DNA of 64,000 bases from Acidobacteriota bacterium (lineage in GTDB: Bacteria > Acidobacteriota > Blastocatellia > Pyrinomonadales > Pyrinomonadaceae). The notes under the pieces were generated by a model that was not told the origin of the DNA, did not search any database, and saw only the letters and a program-made list of their open reading frames with translations. Each line of letters starts with the position of its first letter. The first letter of the stretch is position 1. The stretch spans positions 496,001 to 560,000 of the forward strand of contig JAIVJZ010000041.1 of the NCBI GenBank assembly GCA_020199775.1, read 5' to 3'. This document shows, one piece after another, positions 3,014 through 52,589 of the stretch. The position numbers and the translations under genes are program-made.

Positions 3014-4291
3014 TCAGCGCGCTGCGCGTTTGCCGATGCAATAGAGGTGGCCGGACGTGCGTATGAAAATCTGGCCGTCCGAGACGGCGGGCGAACTGAG
3101 GCAGTATTCGTTCAGATTGTTCTCGGCGAGCACTTCAAACTTCGCGCCCGCCCGGATGACGGACGTGATGCCCTCTTCGCTCGTCGCGTAAATCTTCCCG
3201 TCGGCCAGCACGGGCGAGGCAGAATAGTCGCCCGGCTTGATGCGGACGGGACCGTAAACTTCCTTGCCCGTCTTCGCGTCCAGACACCAGACGATCCCCT
3301 TGTCGCCGACGATGTAAAAATATTTCCCATCCGTGACGGGCGTCGGCACGTCCGGGCCGAACTGCGCCGACCAGACGAGGTGCGACTTCGAGATGTCGCC
3401 GCGCCCGCCCGCGCGGAAGGCCAAGAGCGGCTTGACGCGCGTCGGCGCGTAGATGATGCCGTCGTAGACGACGGGCGAGGCGACGATGCGGTAGAAGCCT
3501 AAGTTCTCCGGGTTGAGGCCGCCCGCGCGCCAGAGTTCTTTGCCGTCGCGCGGGTCGTGGCCGGTCACCACGTCGCCGCCCGTGACGACGATCTCGGTGC
3601 GCGCCGCGTAGCGCAGCAGGGCGGGCGTCGAATAGGCGTCGGGCGATTCCTGAATCGCGTCGGTCGGCCGTTCGACTTTCCAGACGGTCTTGCCCGTCGC
3701 GCGGTTGATCCGCAGCACGTATGAAGGCGCGTCCGTCTTCATGCCGTGGAGCACCTGCACGTAGAGCGCGTCTTCGTGCAGGAGCGGCGAGGAGGCGTAG
3801 CCCCACTGTAGGCCGAACTGCCCGTAGTCCTTCTGAATGTCGCGCGCCCAGAGTTCGCGCCCGCCGAAGTCGAAACCCTTGAGGACGCCCGTGCCCGTCA
3901 TCACGTAGACGCTCTTGCCGTCGGTCACGGGCGAGGGCGAAGACATGTTGTGCTTGCGCTGCCGGTGGTTGCCGCCGCCGAGCAATTTCTTCCACGCGAG
4001 CGTCCCCTTGCCGCGCTCCACGCACCACAGGAAGAGGTTATCGCCCTCCGCGACGTTGAGAAAAATGCGGTCGCCCCACACAATCGGCGTCGAGCCGCTG
4101 CGATCCGGGAGCGGCAGCTTCCAACTGACGTTCTCCTCCGCGCTCCACTTGTGCGGCAGGTTCCGCTCGTCGCTCGTCCCATTCAACTGCGGCCCCCGCC
4201 ACTGCGGCCAGTTGCCCGCGCGCGCGCTCCACCCATACGAGCACATGACGAAGACGACGAGCGCGGCGAACAGAAAGTTTTGACGACGCAT
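3014..4291 (-). CDS. PQQ-binding-like beta-propeller repeat secreted protein
   Basis: Signal peptide MRRQNFLFAALVVFVMCSYGWSARA then NWPQWRGPQLNGTS and repeated propeller blades (SSPSPVTDGKSVYVMTGTG, DAKTGKEVYGPV). Confidence 0.85.
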   Translation of the reverse strand: MRRQNFLFAALVVFVMCSYGWSARAGNWPQWRGPQLNGTSDERNLPHKWSAEENVSWKLPLPDRSGSTPIVWGDRIFLNVAEGDNLFLWCVERGKGTLAWKKLLGGGNHRQRKHNMSSPSPVTDGKSVYVMTGTGVLKGFDFGGRELWARDIQKDYGQFGLQWGYASSPLLHEDALYVQVLHGMKTDAPSYVLRINRATGKTVWKVERPTDAIQESPDAYSTPALLRYAARTEIVVTGGDVVTGHDPRDGKELWRAGGLNPENLGFYRIVASPVVYDGIIYAPTRVKPLLAFRAGGRGDISKSHLVWSAQFGPDVPTPVTDGKYFYIVGDKGIVWCLDAKTGKEVYGPVRIKPGDYSASPVLADGKIYATSEEGITSVIRAGAKFEVLAENNLNEYCLSSPAVSDGQIFIRTSGHLYCIGKRAAR

Positions 4292-9232: not shown

Positions 9233-9299
9233 GGGTAAAGGGAAAGGGATAAAGAAAACTGTTTCCCGCCATTCAACCTTTACCCCTTTCCCTTTACCC
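9233..9299. repeat. Near-perfect inverted repeat (22-nt arms) overlapping the stop codon of the glycosyltransferase gene
   Basis: gggtaaagggaaagggataaag (9233-9254) vs ctttacccctttccctttaccc (9278-9299), one mismatch. Confidence 0.8.
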
Positions 9300-10604
9300 C
9301 TTCACCTCTTGATAAACTTCGAGCGCGCGTTCGGCCATGCGCGCGACGCTGTAGTGTTGGCGCACCCCGCGCGCGCCCTCTCGGCCAAGCGCGGCGGCGC
9401 GCGCCGGGTTCTTCCAGAGTTCGTAAAGTCCCCCGGCGAGGCTTTCGGCGTCGTCGGGCGCGACGAGCAGGCCGCCGCCCGTGCGCTCGACGATCTCCGT
9501 GCACGCGCCGCGTCGCGGCTGGACGACGGGCACGCCGCAGGCCATCGCCTCAAGCAGCGAGATGCCTTTCGGCTCGTCGTAGGTGGCGGGCATCGAAAAG
9601 ACGTGCAACTTTCGCAGGAACGCGATCTTCTCGGCGCGGCCGGGCGCGCCGCGATAGTTGAACTCCGCGCCGAGTCCCCAATCACGCATCTGCCGTTCGA
9701 TGCCGCGCAGGTAAGGCTCGTGTTCCGGCGCGAGATAGCCCGCGACTTCAAGCCGCGCCTGCGATGCCCCGTCGCGTTCGCGCAAGCGTCGGTAAGCCTC
9801 GCACAGTAGATGCAAGCCCTTCTCCGGGGCGACGCGCGCGAAGTAGCCGACGGTGAAGGTGTCTTCGGCGGCCGGGCGCGTCGCCGTCGCCGCTGCGTCG
9901 AGCTCCCCGTAATCTTCGAGGTTGATGCCGAGCGGGACGACGCGCATTTTGCTCGCGGGGATGCGCAAGAGTTCGGACATGAACCCGGCGTAAAACTCGC
10001 TGACGGCGACGAACGCATCGACGTGTGCGACGCTCGCGCGGATCAGTTCGAGCGATTGGCGGCGATACGTCTCTTCGAGGCCGTCGAGAAACAAGTCCTC
10101 GCCTTGCAGCGTGCAGACGACGGGACGATTCAAAGTTTGCCTGACGGGGCGCGCGAAGCCGAGGAGGAGCGAGTTCGGCAGCGTCACCACGTCGGGCGTC
10201 TCCTGCTCGCCGAGCCAGTGCGCCATCTTGTCGAACTCTTTGCGCTGGCGTCCGTCCTCGCCCCTGAGCATCGAGACGGTAAGCTCGCCCAGCAGTTTCG
10301 GGTTGACGGGAATGCTGCGGCGCGCGGCGAGTTTCAAAGCGGCGGTCGAATCCCACAGCCTGTCCAGCAGCCACGGCGTCTTGCGAAAGACGGAGGCGTG
10401 TTGCTGGAGGTAGACGCTGATGCCCCCGAAGAGAACTTTATCGGGGCGACTGACGTTCGGCTCGTCCGTGAGGGTCGGCGTGTAGACGGGCAGGAGCATC
10501 ACGTCGTGCCCGCGCGCGATCAGTTCGGTGGCGAGCGCGTTGTCGCGCAGGCAACTGCCGCAGTACATGTTGGCCGCGCCGGTCGTGAGATAGAGAATCT
10601 TCAT
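9294..10604 (-). CDS. Glycosyltransferase family 4 (GT-B) protein
   Basis: MKILYLTTGAANMYCGSCLRDNALATELIARGHDV...; C-terminal GISLLEAMACGVPVVQPRRGACTEIVERTGGGLLV. Confidence 0.9.
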   Translation of the reverse strand: MKILYLTTGAANMYCGSCLRDNALATELIARGHDVMLLPVYTPTLTDEPNVSRPDKVLFGGISVYLQQHASVFRKTPWLLDRLWDSTAALKLAARRSIPVNPKLLGELTVSMLRGEDGRQRKEFDKMAHWLGEQETPDVVTLPNSLLLGFARPVRQTLNRPVVCTLQGEDLFLDGLEETYRRQSLELIRASVAHVDAFVAVSEFYAGFMSELLRIPASKMRVVPLGINLEDYGELDAAATATRPAAEDTFTVGYFARVAPEKGLHLLCEAYRRLRERDGASQARLEVAGYLAPEHEPYLRGIERQMRDWGLGAEFNYRGAPGRAEKIAFLRKLHVFSMPATYDEPKGISLLEAMACGVPVVQPRRGACTEIVERTGGGLLVAPDDAESLAGGLYELWKNPARAAALGREGARGVRQHYSVARMAERALEVYQEVKG

Positions 10605-27008: not shown

Positions 27009-27089
27009 AACGATGAACGCGGAACGATGAACGATGAACTGAAAGTAACTTGTCTTTCATTCATCGTTCATCGTTCCGCGTTCATCGTT
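27009..27089. repeat. Palindromic dispersed repeat, copy 1
   Basis: aacgatgaacgcggaacgatgaacgatgaa (27009-27038) / reverse complement (27060-27089); short loop. Confidence 0.95.
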
Positions 27090-27095
27090 TCTTCT

Positions 27096-27959
27096 CTATG
27101 TTTCCGCGTCGGCCGCAACCTTGAGTTCTTCCAGCAGTCGCGCCGAGGCGTCGGCCTTCGCTTCCCACGCGCGCGCGCAGACGGCGAGCGGGGCGGGTTC
27201 GAGCCGGTGGCGTTCGCTCCAATTGTGAGCCTCGCGCGCGAGCCAGCCGAGCACGCCGCGCGCGTCCTGCGCGAAGAGGGATTCGAGGACGTACTTGCGT
27301 TCACCGGCGCGCAGGCCGAGCGAGAGCGTGCGCGCGGCGCGGCTCAAATCAGACCGCGTGAGAATCATCCCGCTGCGCGCCGGACTCAGGAGCGTCTGCA
27401 AAAATTCCGCCGTCTCGCCCGCACGCGGGTCGATGAGCCCGGCCGCTTCGCGCAGGTGCAGAGGGAGTTGCGGCGGCGCAGCGGTCGCGCGCGCTTCCTC
27501 GCGCAGCGCGTCCCGAAGCGTCTCGCCCCAACGGCGGTAAAACGGCGTGGCGATCTCGTGCAACTTGGAGAGGTAGGCGGGCAGCCAACTGAGCAGGTGC
27601 TCCCACAGATATGCGGCGCGGGCGCGTCGCCAACTCTCGCGCGGCGCGGCGTCGTCGGCGTCCGCTTCGAGTTCGGAGAGGTGCGCGTAGAGGGCGAGCA
27701 TGACGGAGAGGTGGTCGGGTTCGGCGGGCGGCATCTGCGAGAGCGCGCGCCAGAAGCCCGCCACGCGGTCGCGCGCTTCGCCGCCGAGCATCCCCTCCGC
27801 GCCGAGATAGACGGAGGCGTAAGGGTAGAGTTGGAAGACGAAAATCTCCGTGTACTCGCTCGCCGCGGGAAGCGCGCCGAGTTCGAGCGCGGCGGCGATG
27901 CTTGCCGTCTCATGCGACGGCGGCTCTGCGAAGACGGCGAGTGCGCGAAACAGTTCCAT
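27096..27959 (-). CDS. TorD-family molybdoenzyme chaperone
   Basis: MELFRALAVFAEPPSHETASIAAALELG...EIFVFQLYPYASVYLGAEGMLGGEARDRVAGFWRALS...EPDHLSVMLALYAHL; start overlaps stop of molybdopterin subunit. Confidence 0.8.
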   Translation of the reverse strand: MELFRALAVFAEPPSHETASIAAALELGALPAASEYTEIFVFQLYPYASVYLGAEGMLGGEARDRVAGFWRALSQMPPAEPDHLSVMLALYAHLSELEADADDAAPRESWRRARAAYLWEHLLSWLPAYLSKLHEIATPFYRRWGETLRDALREEARATAAPPQLPLHLREAAGLIDPRAGETAEFLQTLLSPARSGMILTRSDLSRAARTLSLGLRAGERKYVLESLFAQDARGVLGWLAREAHNWSERHRLEPAPLAVCARAWEAKADASARLLEELKVAADAET

Positions 27960-36737: not shown

Positions 36738-37673
36738 ATGGCGGAACAACTCTACGATTGCATCGTGATCGGGGCGGGGCCGGCGGGACTCTCGGCCGCA
36801 CTTTTTCTCGCGCGCTACCGCAGGCGCGTGCTCACCTTTCACCACAACAGCCCGCGCAACATCTACTCGCACGGCGTCCACGGATTCCTCGGCCACCACG
36901 GCATCCAGCCGACCGAACTGCTCGCGCGCGGCCGCGACGAGGTGGCGGCGCACGGCGGGCTGATCGTCGAAGGCTGCGTGACGCGCGTCGAGCGCATCGG
37001 CGAAGAACATTTTCGCGTCTCGACGGGCGACGGTCGTGTCGTGGGACAGTCGTTCGACGCGCGCCGCCTGCTGCTCGCCACGGGCTTGCGCGATTTCACC
37101 CCCGACTGTCCCGGCTTCCGCGAGTTCTACGGCGTCTCCGTCCACCACTGCCCCGACTGCGACGGCTTCGAGGTGACGAACAAGCGCGTCGCCATCCTCG
37201 GTCGCGGCAAGAGCGCGGCGGGCTTCACGCTCGGCATGCTGACGTGGACTGACAAATTGACGCTCATCACCAACGGCGACCCCGGCGACATCTCGGACGA
37301 ACATCTCGCCAAGCTCGCCGAATTCAACATCCCCGTCACCAACCAGATCATCGCCAAGCTCGAAGGCGACGCGGAGACGAATCAACTCGAACTCGTGCGC
37401 TTCGAGGACGGCGACGCGCTCGCGTGCGACGCCCTCTTCTTCAACCTCGGCACGGAAACCGCTTCCAATTTGCACGAGATGCTCGGCTGCCGCATTGACG
37501 AAGATTGCGAACTGGTGTGGGTGGACGCAGACCAGCAGACGAGCGTCCCCGGCGTCTACGCGGCGGGCGACCTCACGCCGAAATCGCAACTCGCCGTCGT
37601 CGCCGCCGCCGAAGGCGCGATGGCCGCCATCCACATCCATAAGTCGCTGATCCCGGAGTCGCAGCGAGTCTAA
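36738..37673 (+). CDS. NAD(P)/FAD-dependent oxidoreductase, thioredoxin-reductase-like
   Basis: DCIVIGAGPAGLSAALFLARY, CPDC redox motif, GVYAAGDLTPKSQLAVVAAAEGAMAA. Confidence 0.92.
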   Translation: MAEQLYDCIVIGAGPAGLSAALFLARYRRRVLTFHHNSPRNIYSHGVHGFLGHHGIQPTELLARGRDEVAAHGGLIVEGCVTRVERIGEEHFRVSTGDGRVVGQSFDARRLLLATGLRDFTPDCPGFREFYGVSVHHCPDCDGFEVTNKRVAILGRGKSAAGFTLGMLTWTDKLTLITNGDPGDISDEHLAKLAEFNIPVTNQIIAKLEGDAETNQLELVRFEDGDALACDALFFNLGTETASNLHEMLGCRIDEDCELVWVDADQQTSVPGVYAAGDLTPKSQLAVVAAAEGAMAAIHIHKSLIPESQRV

Positions 37674-37680
37674 ACAAAGT

Positions 37681-37762
37681 ATGAACGCGGAACGATGAAC
37701 GATGAATGAAAACATTCAACAGAGTGAGTGCCTTCATTCATCGTTCATCGTTCCGCGTTCAT
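37681..37762. repeat. Palindromic dispersed repeat, copy 2 (larger loop)
   Basis: atgaacgcggaacgatgaacgatgaa (37681-37706) / ttcatcgttcatcgttccgcgttcat (37737-37762); inner tgaa/ttca pairing. Confidence 0.95.
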
Positions 37763-37770
37763 CGTTTAAT

Positions 37771-38733
37771 TCAATTGCGGAAGTTCTGCGTCACCATCAG
37801 GCCACGCCGCCCGCCGTCCATGACGCCGATGCCGACGCGGCCGAATTGCGGGCGCAGGATGTTGGCGCGGTGGCCGGGCGAGTTCATCAAACCCGTATGG
37901 GCGATGGAGAGCGTGGGCGCGAGCGCGAGGTTTTCGCCCGCCGTGCGGAACTGGACGCCGCCCTCGCGGATACGCGCGAAGGGGTCGCGGCCTTCGGGCG
38001 TGACGTGCGAGAAGTAGCCGCGCGCGAACATGTCCGACGAATGACGGCGCGCCACTTCCCGCAGTTCGTCGTCGGCCGCGAGGGGCGCGAGCCCGGCGGC
38101 GACGCGTTCGCGGTTGACGAGTTCGAGCATCTGCGCCTCCAGTTCCGGCCGCGGTTTCGTCTCGGCCACTTTGAAAGGCAGTTCGACGCTCTCGTTCGAC
38201 TCCGGCTTGACGGTCAGGCGGTTGAGCGTCTGCGCGATGGCGTCGTTGAAGACGGGCGCGAGCGCGCTCTCCAATTGCTCGGTGGAGGCGGCGAGGCGGT
38301 TCGCCAGCTCGCTCGCGCGTGCGCGCTGCTGCATCCCGTCGGGGAGCGGCGCGGCCATCAGCAGCGCGGCGGCGATTGATGCGGTGATGAGTCCGCTGGC
38401 GAGTCCGGGCGCGATGCCCGCCGCGCGATTCAGACGCCTCCGGTGCACGTCTCGCGGCAGTCGGCGCAGGAGCGCGGAGCCGAGCAGTTGGATCGCCAAC
38501 CCGGCACAGATCGCCACGAGCAGGAAAGCGACGGGTCTGTCCCACGCCTCCGCCCAGTCGAAATGCGGCGCGATCAGGCGCGCGAGCGGCTGGTAGAAGC
38601 GCAAGCCCAGAAGCAGGCTGCCGATCCAGCGCAGCAGATCGAGCAGGCCGAGGATGAAGCCGCGATACCAGCCGTAATACGCGCTCAGGAGCACGATCAG
38701 GATCAGCAACAGATCAATGTAGTTCACGCTCAT
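37771..38733 (-). CDS. CvpA-like membrane domain fused to C-terminal CAP/SCP domain
   Basis: MSVNYIDLLLILIVLLSAYYGWYRGFILGLLDLLRWIG (CvpA-like) and MLELVNRERVAAGLAPLAADDELREVARRHSSDMFARGYFSHVTPEGRDPFARI...GENLA...GLMNSPGHRANILRP (CAP). Confidence 0.9.
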   Translation of the reverse strand: MSVNYIDLLLILIVLLSAYYGWYRGFILGLLDLLRWIGSLLLGLRFYQPLARLIAPHFDWAEAWDRPVAFLLVAICAGLAIQLLGSALLRRLPRDVHRRRLNRAAGIAPGLASGLITASIAAALLMAAPLPDGMQQRARASELANRLAASTEQLESALAPVFNDAIAQTLNRLTVKPESNESVELPFKVAETKPRPELEAQMLELVNRERVAAGLAPLAADDELREVARRHSSDMFARGYFSHVTPEGRDPFARIREGGVQFRTAGENLALAPTLSIAHTGLMNSPGHRANILRPQFGRVGIGVMDGGRRGLMVTQNFRN

Positions 38734-51087: not shown

Positions 51088-51170
51088 AAACGATGAACGC
51101 GGAACGATGAACGATGAACTGAAGAATGGTTGCCTTCAGTTCATCGTTCATCGTTCCGCGTTCATCGTTT
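51088..51170. repeat. Palindromic dispersed repeat, copy 3 (perfect 37-bp arms, 9-nt loop)
   Basis: aaacgatgaacgcggaacgatgaacgatgaactgaag (51088-51124) / cttcagttcatcgttcatcgttccgcgttcatcgttt (51134-51170). Confidence 0.97.
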
Positions 51171-51206: not shown

Positions 51207-52589
51207 TTAGTAGATGTTGAAGTTGTATTCGATGGTGACGTATTGCGACACCTTGCGGCCGTCCTTTTCGGCGGGCGTGAAGCCGATTTTGCGCGCGGCC
51301 TCAATCGCCTTTTCGGTCAATCCGTCGGGCAACTTCGTGAGCGGCGTGATGTTCGTCACCTGTCCCGAAGCGGAGAGGACGAGGCGCAGGCGGACGGTGC
51401 CGGTCACTTGATTCCTGCGCGCCTCTTCGGTGTAGAGCGGTTCGGGCTTGGAGGTGATCTGCGCCCGGCGCGTCACTTCGCCCACGCGAAAGTTGCGCGC
51501 GTAATCCACGCCGCCGCCGCCCGTGCCGCCCGGGCCGCCCCCGCCCAAATTCGTCGCGCCGCCGCCCGTGTTGTAGCCTACGCCCGGCCCGTAGCCCGTG
51601 CCGCTGCCCGCGCCGACGCCGCCGCCCGTGCCTTCGCCGATGCCGCCTCCGCTGCCCGAACCGGAAGAGAGTTCGGTCGCTTTAGATTTCGGGTCGCCGT
51701 AGTTGATGGCGCGCGAGTCCGTGGGGAACAGGACGGGGTCGGCGCGGATCGTCGCGGCCGTCGGCAACGAAGGGTTCCGGATCGTCGGCGGCTTCGGATC
51801 GGGCGCGAGCACTTGCGGGTCGAGCGTCGCCTGCGGCAGTTTGCCGTGCACGGCCGGTTTGTCTTCGAGACGACCGCCGCCGCCCCCGCCGCCCGGCCGC
51901 TCCTGCTGCGCCTTCGCGCCGCCGCCCGCGCCCTTCGCCATCCCGGCCGCGCCTTCGTCGGGCTTCGGCTGCTCCTTCGGAATCTCGGTCACGCGGCCGA
52001 GGTAGATCAAATTCTCATTCACGCGTTCGGCCAACAGGCTGCCGCGCGTCGTCTGAAAATTATTGAACGCGGCGACCGCGCCCGCGAGCGTGACGACGGC
52101 GACGAACGCGGCGAGCACGCCGTAAGCCGTGTTCTCCTGACGAAGCGTGCGCCACGCCATCGCGGCGTAGGCCGCGCTCATGCGCCGCACGAAGCGAAAG
52201 GGGTCGCGGCGAAACTCCGCGCGCGTGAGTTCCGCGTCGTGCGCCGTCTCACGCACCTCTGCGAGCAGGCGCGTCAAGAGCCCGCGCTCCTCCAAGATCG
52301 TGAGTTGGTATTCGCCGGGCAGGGCGTACTGCGGCGCGAGCGTTTCGCCGGGGCGGTGCAAATTCATTTCTTTCTCCTTCAACAGTTCGCGATACGAATT
52401 AAGGACGCGCGCGTCGAGCGACGCGGGCACGACTTGGGGAGACTGCCAACCGTCAAGTAACGCTTTCAAATCTTCATCCGACGCCTGCTGCGCGGACGAC
52501 TCGCGCGCGAATGCGTCCGGCGGGTCGAGTTCGACGCCGCGGCGGCGGCGCGCGTGCGGAGAATCCTGATGCGTCTTCTTCTCACTCAT
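51207..52589 (-). CDS. Energy transducer TonB-family protein
   Basis: C-terminal RAQITSKPEPLYTEEARRNQVTGTVRLRLVLSASGQVTNITPLTKLPDGLTEKAIEAARKIGFTPAEKDGRKVSQYVTIEYNFNIY; Gly/Pro-rich linker. Confidence 0.92.
   Translation of the reverse strand: MSEKKTHQDSPHARRRRGVELDPPDAFARESSAQQASDEDLKALLDGWQSPQVVPASLDARVLNSYRELLKEKEMNLHRPGETLAPQYALPGEYQLTILEERGLLTRLLAEVRETAHDAELTRAEFRRDPFRFVRRMSAAYAAMAWRTLRQENTAYGVLAAFVAVVTLAGAVAAFNNFQTTRGSLLAERVNENLIYLGRVTEIPKEQPKPDEGAAGMAKGAGGGAKAQQERPGGGGGGGRLEDKPAVHGKLPQATLDPQVLAPDPKPPTIRNPSLPTAATIRADPVLFPTDSRAINYGDPKSKATELSSGSGSGGGIGEGTGGGVGAGSGTGYGPGVGYNTGGGATNLGGGGPGGTGGGGVDYARNFRVGEVTRRAQITSKPEPLYTEEARRNQVTGTVRLRLVLSASGQVTNITPLTKLPDGLTEKAIEAARKIGFTPAEKDGRKVSQYVTIEYNFNIY

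Follow-up and report, generated by a model that had tools for sequence, protein, structure and literature searches.

REPs and the GGGAATC heptamers of Xanthomonas are the closest precedents for the elements described here. REPs are described as 20 to 40 bp long, with a shared consensus and an associated RAYT (PMC3733652, PMC2817692). PMC12306157 places a subset of REPs within 15 nt of a stop codon, cites reports that REPs at most 15 nt from the stop codon stall ribosomes in Escherichia coli, and describes REP hairpins as able to protect upstream mRNA against 3' exonucleases. In Xanthomonas, GGGAATC occurs about 185 times per genome (about 70 as inverted pairs), and is rare between divergent genes, and in 83% of cases the sister species retains that repeat at the corresponding gene; there, and in Nostoc with GGGGA(T/C)T, each genome has one G-rich alphabet, which was read as G-quadruplex (PMC4692102). 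Other heptamers include the TAACTGA direct repeats of Beggiatoaceae, which lie mostly just upstream of start codons and put a stop in every frame (PMC4679880), and the heptamer repeats of cyanobacteria, e.g., ttgtcagttgtcag in Nostoc (PMC2408588). Here, we report palindromes with arms of 7-nt units, found at gene ends of an Acidobacteriota genome in several unit alphabets, three of them of one alphabet in the window (the whole 64,000-nt stretch of DNA that was analyzed).

Materials and methods

The palindrome scan was hypothesis free and covered 1,055 intergenic regions in 1.6 Mb of the same genome (contig C11, complete, joined to positions 1-960000 of contig C40), with genes called by a home-made hexamer model and with dinucleotide shuffles of the same regions as the control. 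Orthologous gene ends were compared with those of two genomes of the same genus, G002 and G001; part of the G002 sequence was fetched for its GATGAAC element.

Results

The initial annotation had proposed a dispersed palindromic family with three copies in the window, each 3' of a gene. All three palindromes were present, the flanking genes were as it had named them (NarJ/TorD-like PF02613, CvpA-CAP, TonB_C, and Pyr_redox_2), and their stop codons lie 6 to 36 nt away. The features are as follows, together with a fourth palindrome of the window, which has another alphabet.

9233..9299, no strand assigned: fourth heptad palindrome in the window, written in the GGGTAAA alphabet; it overlaps the 3' end of the minus-strand gene 9294-10604
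27009..27089, no strand assigned: copy 1, GATGAAC-type heptad palindrome; its perfect arms measure 30 nt, and it lies 6 nt 3' of the TorD/NarJ-like gene
27096..27959, minus strand: nitrate reductase delta/TorD-like gene (PF02613), its end beside copy 1
36738..37673, plus strand: pyridine nucleotide-disulphide oxidoreductase gene (Pyr_redox_2), its end beside copy 2
37681..37762, no strand assigned: copy 2, heptad palindrome of the GATGAAC type whose loop is GGGATGA-type, lying between the convergent oxidoreductase (plus) and CvpA-CAP (minus) genes
37771..38733, minus strand: CvpA-CAP gene, its end beside copy 2
51088..51170, no strand assigned: copy 3, GATGAAC-type heptad palindrome; its perfect arms measure 37 nt, and it lies 36 nt 3' of the TonB gene
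51207..52589, minus strand: TonB C-terminal domain gene (TonB_C), its end beside copy 3

Perfectly complementary arms span 27009-27038 and 27060-27089 in copy 1 (30 nt) and 51088-51124 and 51134-51170 in copy 3 (37 nt); copy 2 has a 22-nt loop between 30-nt arms and lies 7 and 8 nt from the stop codons of its two convergent genes. The different loop noted for copy 2 was borne out and is similar to loops of the GGGATGA alphabet, while that of copy 1, described as short, is actually 21 nt between perfect arms and not clearly shorter. The arms do contain a sub-repeat, as annotated, in the form of a run of 7-nt units (GAACGAT, GAACGCG, etc.) rather than the one described. The core CGGAACGATGAACGATGAA has six exact occurrences in the window (0.02 expected by chance with up to three mismatches), and predicted RNA folds of the three copies range from -60 to -68 kcal/mol (z = -13 to -15 versus shuffles). 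An Rfam search of the window gave no match above the gathering score, and copies 1 and 2 were absent from the list of a terminator scan. In the 5.9-Mb assembly, the GATGAAC core arm had 271 matches with at most two mismatches (reversed control pattern, 0), so the family is far larger than three copies.

The 1.6-Mb sample contained 326 long intergenic palindromes (1 in the shuffles), about 212 of which had arms of 7-nt units. Arm autocorrelation was highest at 7 nt (mean, 0.60), followed by 8 nt (0.32), and of about 247 arms that were 20 nt or longer, 184 had 7 as their best period, with at least 60% match. The main alphabets were GATGAAC (51), GTGAATC (47), GTTTCAA (45), GGGTAAA/GGGGAAA (22), and GGGATGA (19), with TCAGCTA (9), AGTGAGC (7), GTGACAA (3), AGAGGTC (3), GTCAGTT (2), and a few others as minor ones; the units were listed by eye, which makes the figure of about ten alphabets approximate, and some may be interrelated. 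Elements measured about 60 to 105 bp, with family-specific sequence and with loop cores that were family typical and partly common to several families. In five families, arms agreed at 0.89 to 0.95 within copies versus 0.80 to 0.88 between copies, the within-copy figure being somewhat inflated by the palindrome filter, which itself favors arm agreement. G runs were present in the units GGGATGA and GGGGAAA and were not seen in GATGAAC, GTGAATC, or GTTTCAA.

Like REPs, these are high-copy intergenic palindromes: 206 of the 207 heptad palindromes with a score of at least 16 in the 1.6 Mb were intergenic, and the single one inside a called gene touches the end of that gene. At 60 to 105 bp and in about ten alphabets, they are not the short 20- to 40-bp palindrome with a shared consensus that defines REPs, and no REP-type GTAG/CGTC tags were seen, GTAG occurring inside the GAAGTAG unit, away from the palindrome end. 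Their tandem 7-nt units near stop codons agree with heptamer simple sequence repeats of the Xanthomonas GGGAATC type. A 50-kb stretch of E. coli K-12 held no palindrome of this size, a weak control, as E. coli terminators fall below the threshold.

Palindromes outside period 7 were also observed. This genome has two further dispersed intergenic hairpin families, CTTTGCGCC (period 8) and GGGCAGGGCTTGTCCCTGCCC, the latter usually more than 60 nt from stops (example sites of the two, C11:50833, C11:104685, C40:430279 and C11:6360, C11:264534). In G041, which belongs to a different family within the class, a 20-kb stretch contains six long palindromes that have the common motif AACGGAACAAACGAAA...ACGGAAA with no clear period 7 and apparently represent another dispersed palindrome family.

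The placement at gene 3' ends that had been proposed from three copies was found across the 1.6-Mb sample, and the copies were neither randomly distributed relative to gene ends nor limited to those three. A total of 199 heptad palindromes face a 3' end: the stop codon is overlapped by 62, 109 start 0 to 20 nt after it, 13 start at 21 to 60 nt, and 15 lie further away, with 171 (86%) falling from 30 nt before to 20 nt after the stop codon; the same bins hold 1, 19, 44, and 19 of 83 other hairpins, which lie mostly at 21 to 60 nt. In spacers with 150 nt or more of freedom, 17 of the 30 heptad palindromes were within 25 nt of a stop (4.9 expected). Occupancy was 28% in convergent, 22% in codirectional, and 9% in divergent spacers, and at most 30 nt of other spacer remained beside 71 of the 162 codirectional palindromes. 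The ordinary hairpins of the genome, at 20 to 60 nt from stops, are those concentrated between convergent genes.

Each of six consecutive spacers in an enoyl-CoA hydratase/SDR/RidA/acyl-CoA dehydrogenase/FAD-monooxygenase run is filled by a heptad palindrome. Within this acyl-CoA/enoyl-CoA catabolic run (C40:79095-85560), alphabets vary among the six palindromes, and several G002 counterparts are in other alphabets. T was modestly enriched after the stem, and A before it, with a weak T tract (mean, 3.1 T in 8; background, about 1.9; at least 5 T in 31 of 147). A weak T tract and operon-internal copies do not agree with an intrinsic terminator, which has a GC-rich stem and a T tract and lies at transcription unit ends. 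Since many heptad palindromes fill spacers of apparent operons, not all can be terminators, and general transcription termination, one of the two uses suggested by the initial annotation, is unlikely; the other, stabilization of mRNA 3' ends, may apply, as may a role in translation. Loop orientation was considered as a sign of RNA-level polarity and rejected, as it had no consistent link with gene direction, cores standing either way round relative to transcription.

Exact GATGAAC matches numbered 114 here, 108 in G027 (another genus), 14 in G003, 0 in G001, and 1 in G002; the congeners G001 and G002 do carry diverged GATGAAC copies. GTTTCAA had 115 matches here and 60 and 28 in two congeners, GTGAATC had 126 here and 52 and 67 in two congeners, and GTCAGTT had 2 here, 149 in G001, and 15 in G002. 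Alphabets were thus amplified in a lineage-specific manner. This amplification and the occurrence of cores in both orientations favor copying of whole elements, by which the class probably dispersed. Against this, the best copy pairs were at most 94% alike, and neither a target-site duplication nor a RAYT was found.

The RAYT that was to be expected of a REP family was not found in this genome (the assembly is about 92% complete, so the absence is not absolute). Only two PF01797 (Y1_Tnp) matches were obtained, one with five in-frame stops and one truncated and IS200-like, with no palindromes in their loci; this does not match a RAYT-mobilized REP/REPIN, in which the repeat would flank such a gene. 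Target-site duplication, which together with terminal inverted repeats defines a MITE, was not found either (flanking direct repeats of at least 4 nt in 3.8%, versus 6.4% in mismatched flanks). The REP/MITE-like description thus held for a dispersed palindrome at 3' ends and failed on RAYT and target-site duplication; nor does a single family fit, since the same build recurs in about ten alphabets, and the element represents one of them.

The few composite or nested palindromes indicate that one palindrome can come to sit within another. As a general route of alphabet exchange, nested insertion was rejected, being too rare here (3 strong cases among 212, versus 0 in a mismatched-flank control, and 2 mirrored hybrids), and in this genome it is a minor route at most. 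In MAG52 / G003 and G029, composite palindromes have AGTCAGA or CACAGAGG units as outer arms, mirrored in both arms, and a GATGAAC palindrome inside.

Among the matches listed, GATGAAC palindromes were also present in further acidobacterial MAGs, subgroup 4 and 7 bins among them; other matches, from Bacteroidota and Cyanobacteria, are mostly tandem heptamers, not palindromes. GATGAAC-type palindromes with other loops were found in the betaproteobacterium MAG RIFCSPLOWO2_12_FULL_62_58, reflecting either horizontal transfer, binning error, or convergent units. Short samples from relatives showed further heptad alphabets in several other genera, and most genomes sampled from the same class showed none. 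Three viral-contig matches were obtained, none within a recognizable palindrome. Viral contig IMGVR_UViG_3300049432_000151 has long direct tandem heptamer arrays with a changing unit (GTTCGCC, GTTCATC, CCCGCTT) at about 3500-3660.

At orthologous gene ends of this genome and G002, a heptad palindrome was present in both at 17, in this genome only at 9, in G002 only at 5, and in neither at 66 (Fisher P, about 1e-8; convergent sites counted for both genes), a shared occupancy that is inflated because the G002 sample was partly chosen by GATGAAC content. In contig C124, chosen solely by synteny with the window, a heptad palindrome was still present at 5 or 6 of 8 sites that have one here. The alphabet differs at roughly 10 of the 16 shared sites. 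G002 has a GTCAGTT-type palindrome at the ortholog site of copy 1, a GTGAATC-type one at that of copy 2 (GTCAGTT-type in G001), and an ordinary GC-rich hairpin instead at that of copy 3; at C40:770108, three alphabets occur across three congeners. GGGTAAA sites are the stable ones between congeners, and the orthologous site of the palindrome at 9233-9299 also has this alphabet in G002. The pair at C40:79927 (GTTTCAA here, GTGAC-type in G002) aligns unit by unit and has part of the core in common, so heptad units may change in place and in concert. That congeners often keep a hairpin at the same gene end in another 7-letter word suggests that shape rather than sequence is kept.

Discussion

We see about an even chance, judging from sequence, that these are REP-like stop-codon hairpins in multi-alphabet gene-end slots, kept for structure and acting in mRNA. 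Each copy would be a member of a large REP-like hairpin class, with arms of 7-nt units flanking a short core typical of its family, situated at a stop codon, and some copy process would have amplified about ten coexisting alphabets in a lineage-specific way. The gene end would be a slot in which a stable hairpin flush with the stop is kept between species and the heptad alphabet is replaceable. Starting 0 to 20 nt behind the stop, or overlapping it, the hairpin, of roughly 30 bp, would act in mRNA, where it would meet the terminating ribosome, block 3'-to-5' exonucleases, and so set the expression and stability of the upstream cistron, within operons and at their ends. Because loop orientation is unlinked to transcription, nothing proves an RNA-level role; such a role, at mRNA 3' ends or in ribosome termination, is most likely, we infer, and ribosome stalling and exonuclease block, being independent of orientation, operon position, and sequence, would fit what is conserved. 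More tentatively, the palindromes may form one structural class in which the hairpin slot at the stop is conserved between species and the 7-nt word is replaced by arm-synchronizing copying or conversion.

The main rival, which we find doubtful, takes them for purely selfish dispersed repeats (MITE- or REPIN-like) that are found near stops as insertions elsewhere were purged; alphabets would be competing families overwriting one another at tolerated spots, and the hairpin would serve element mobility. Lineage-specific amplification of each alphabet, patchiness in taxa, insertion of cores in both orientations, and some nested or composite palindromes agree with this, but the lack of a RAYT or target-site duplication, best copy pairs only 94% alike, the preference for the stop even in roomy spacers, and slots that stay filled across species while sequences change argue against it. 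Bidirectional transcription terminators made of long hairpins would account for the enrichment of convergent (28%) over divergent (9%) spacers and for the modest rise in T content that follows the stem and in A content that precedes it. They are nonetheless improbable given the 71 of 162 codirectional cases with at most 30 nt of other spacer, the run of six inside one operon, the concentration between convergent genes of ordinary hairpins at 20 to 60 nt instead, and the absence of copies 1 and 2 from the terminator scan.

It is quite improbable that the palindromes are all-frame stop cassettes giving three-frame stops from both sides. Since 7 = 1 mod 3, tandem units with one stop each place a stop in every frame, the same logic as published for TAACTGA repeats (PMC4679880), and 62 of the 199 elements extend over their own gene's stop codon; a stop is found on one strand in 10 of 11 alphabets, but unit composition alone predicts 7.5 of 11, which makes this figure weak evidence. 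Moreover, stops are on the exit arm in GTTTCAA and TCAGCTA, and there are none in GCGGAAT (here) or Xanthomonas GGGAATC. We give very little credence to neutral replication by-products, in which slippage yields heptad tandems and hairpin-templated (quasi-palindrome) correction keeps arms alike with no function. PMC4679880 describes heptamer over-representation in many bacteria, with polymerase slippage proposed, and in one site pair both arms change unit by unit and the core is partly kept, but replication alone leaves stop-codon placement, family-typical cores, and shared occupancy unexplained.

Returning to stop-codon hairpins kept for structure, we found no described equivalent, in the open-access literature, of elements whose structure is conserved and whose sequence is interchangeable, with a multi-alphabet repertoire within a single genome. 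Repeats are normally recognized by a common sequence, and here the constants are the place at the stop codon, the period of 7 nt, and pairing, so a repeat finder that relies on sequence breaks the class up or overlooks it. With about 200 loci in 1.6 Mb and three congeners, there are many natural replicates for asking whether stop-codon hairpins govern mRNA 3' ends or ribosome release. The question raised is which process writes both arms in one 7-nt word, and why the unit has seven letters, a point left open by reports of heptamer over-representation in bacteria.

With REPs, BIMEs, and REPINs, the elements have in common that many dispersed intergenic palindromes lie near gene 3' ends and inside operons and can form mRNA hairpins; unlike REPs, they are 60 to 105 bp long, with period-7 arms, about ten unrelated-looking alphabets in this one genome, and no RAYT found. 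Intrinsic (rho-independent) terminators likewise place a hairpin behind a gene, often between convergent genes. Heptad palindromes differ in directly abutting the stop, in their long stems and weak T tract, and in being found inside operons too. The Beggiatoaceae TAACTGA and cyanobacterial heptamers are intergenic and patchy across phyla, as here, and the Nostoc unit ttgtcagttgtcag is the GTCAGTT alphabet of this genome, but those are direct repeats and these are palindromes at stop codons. Xanthomonas GGGAATC and Nostoc GGGGA(T/C)T are similarly heptameric, intergenic, and near or overlapping stop codons; here, in contrast, palindromes are the rule, alphabets are many, and they are exchanged at conserved sites. 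Compared with the heptamers and REPs published in the open-access literature, the elements thus differ in their multi-alphabet repertoire, in the palindromic rule, and in alphabet exchange at fixed slots.
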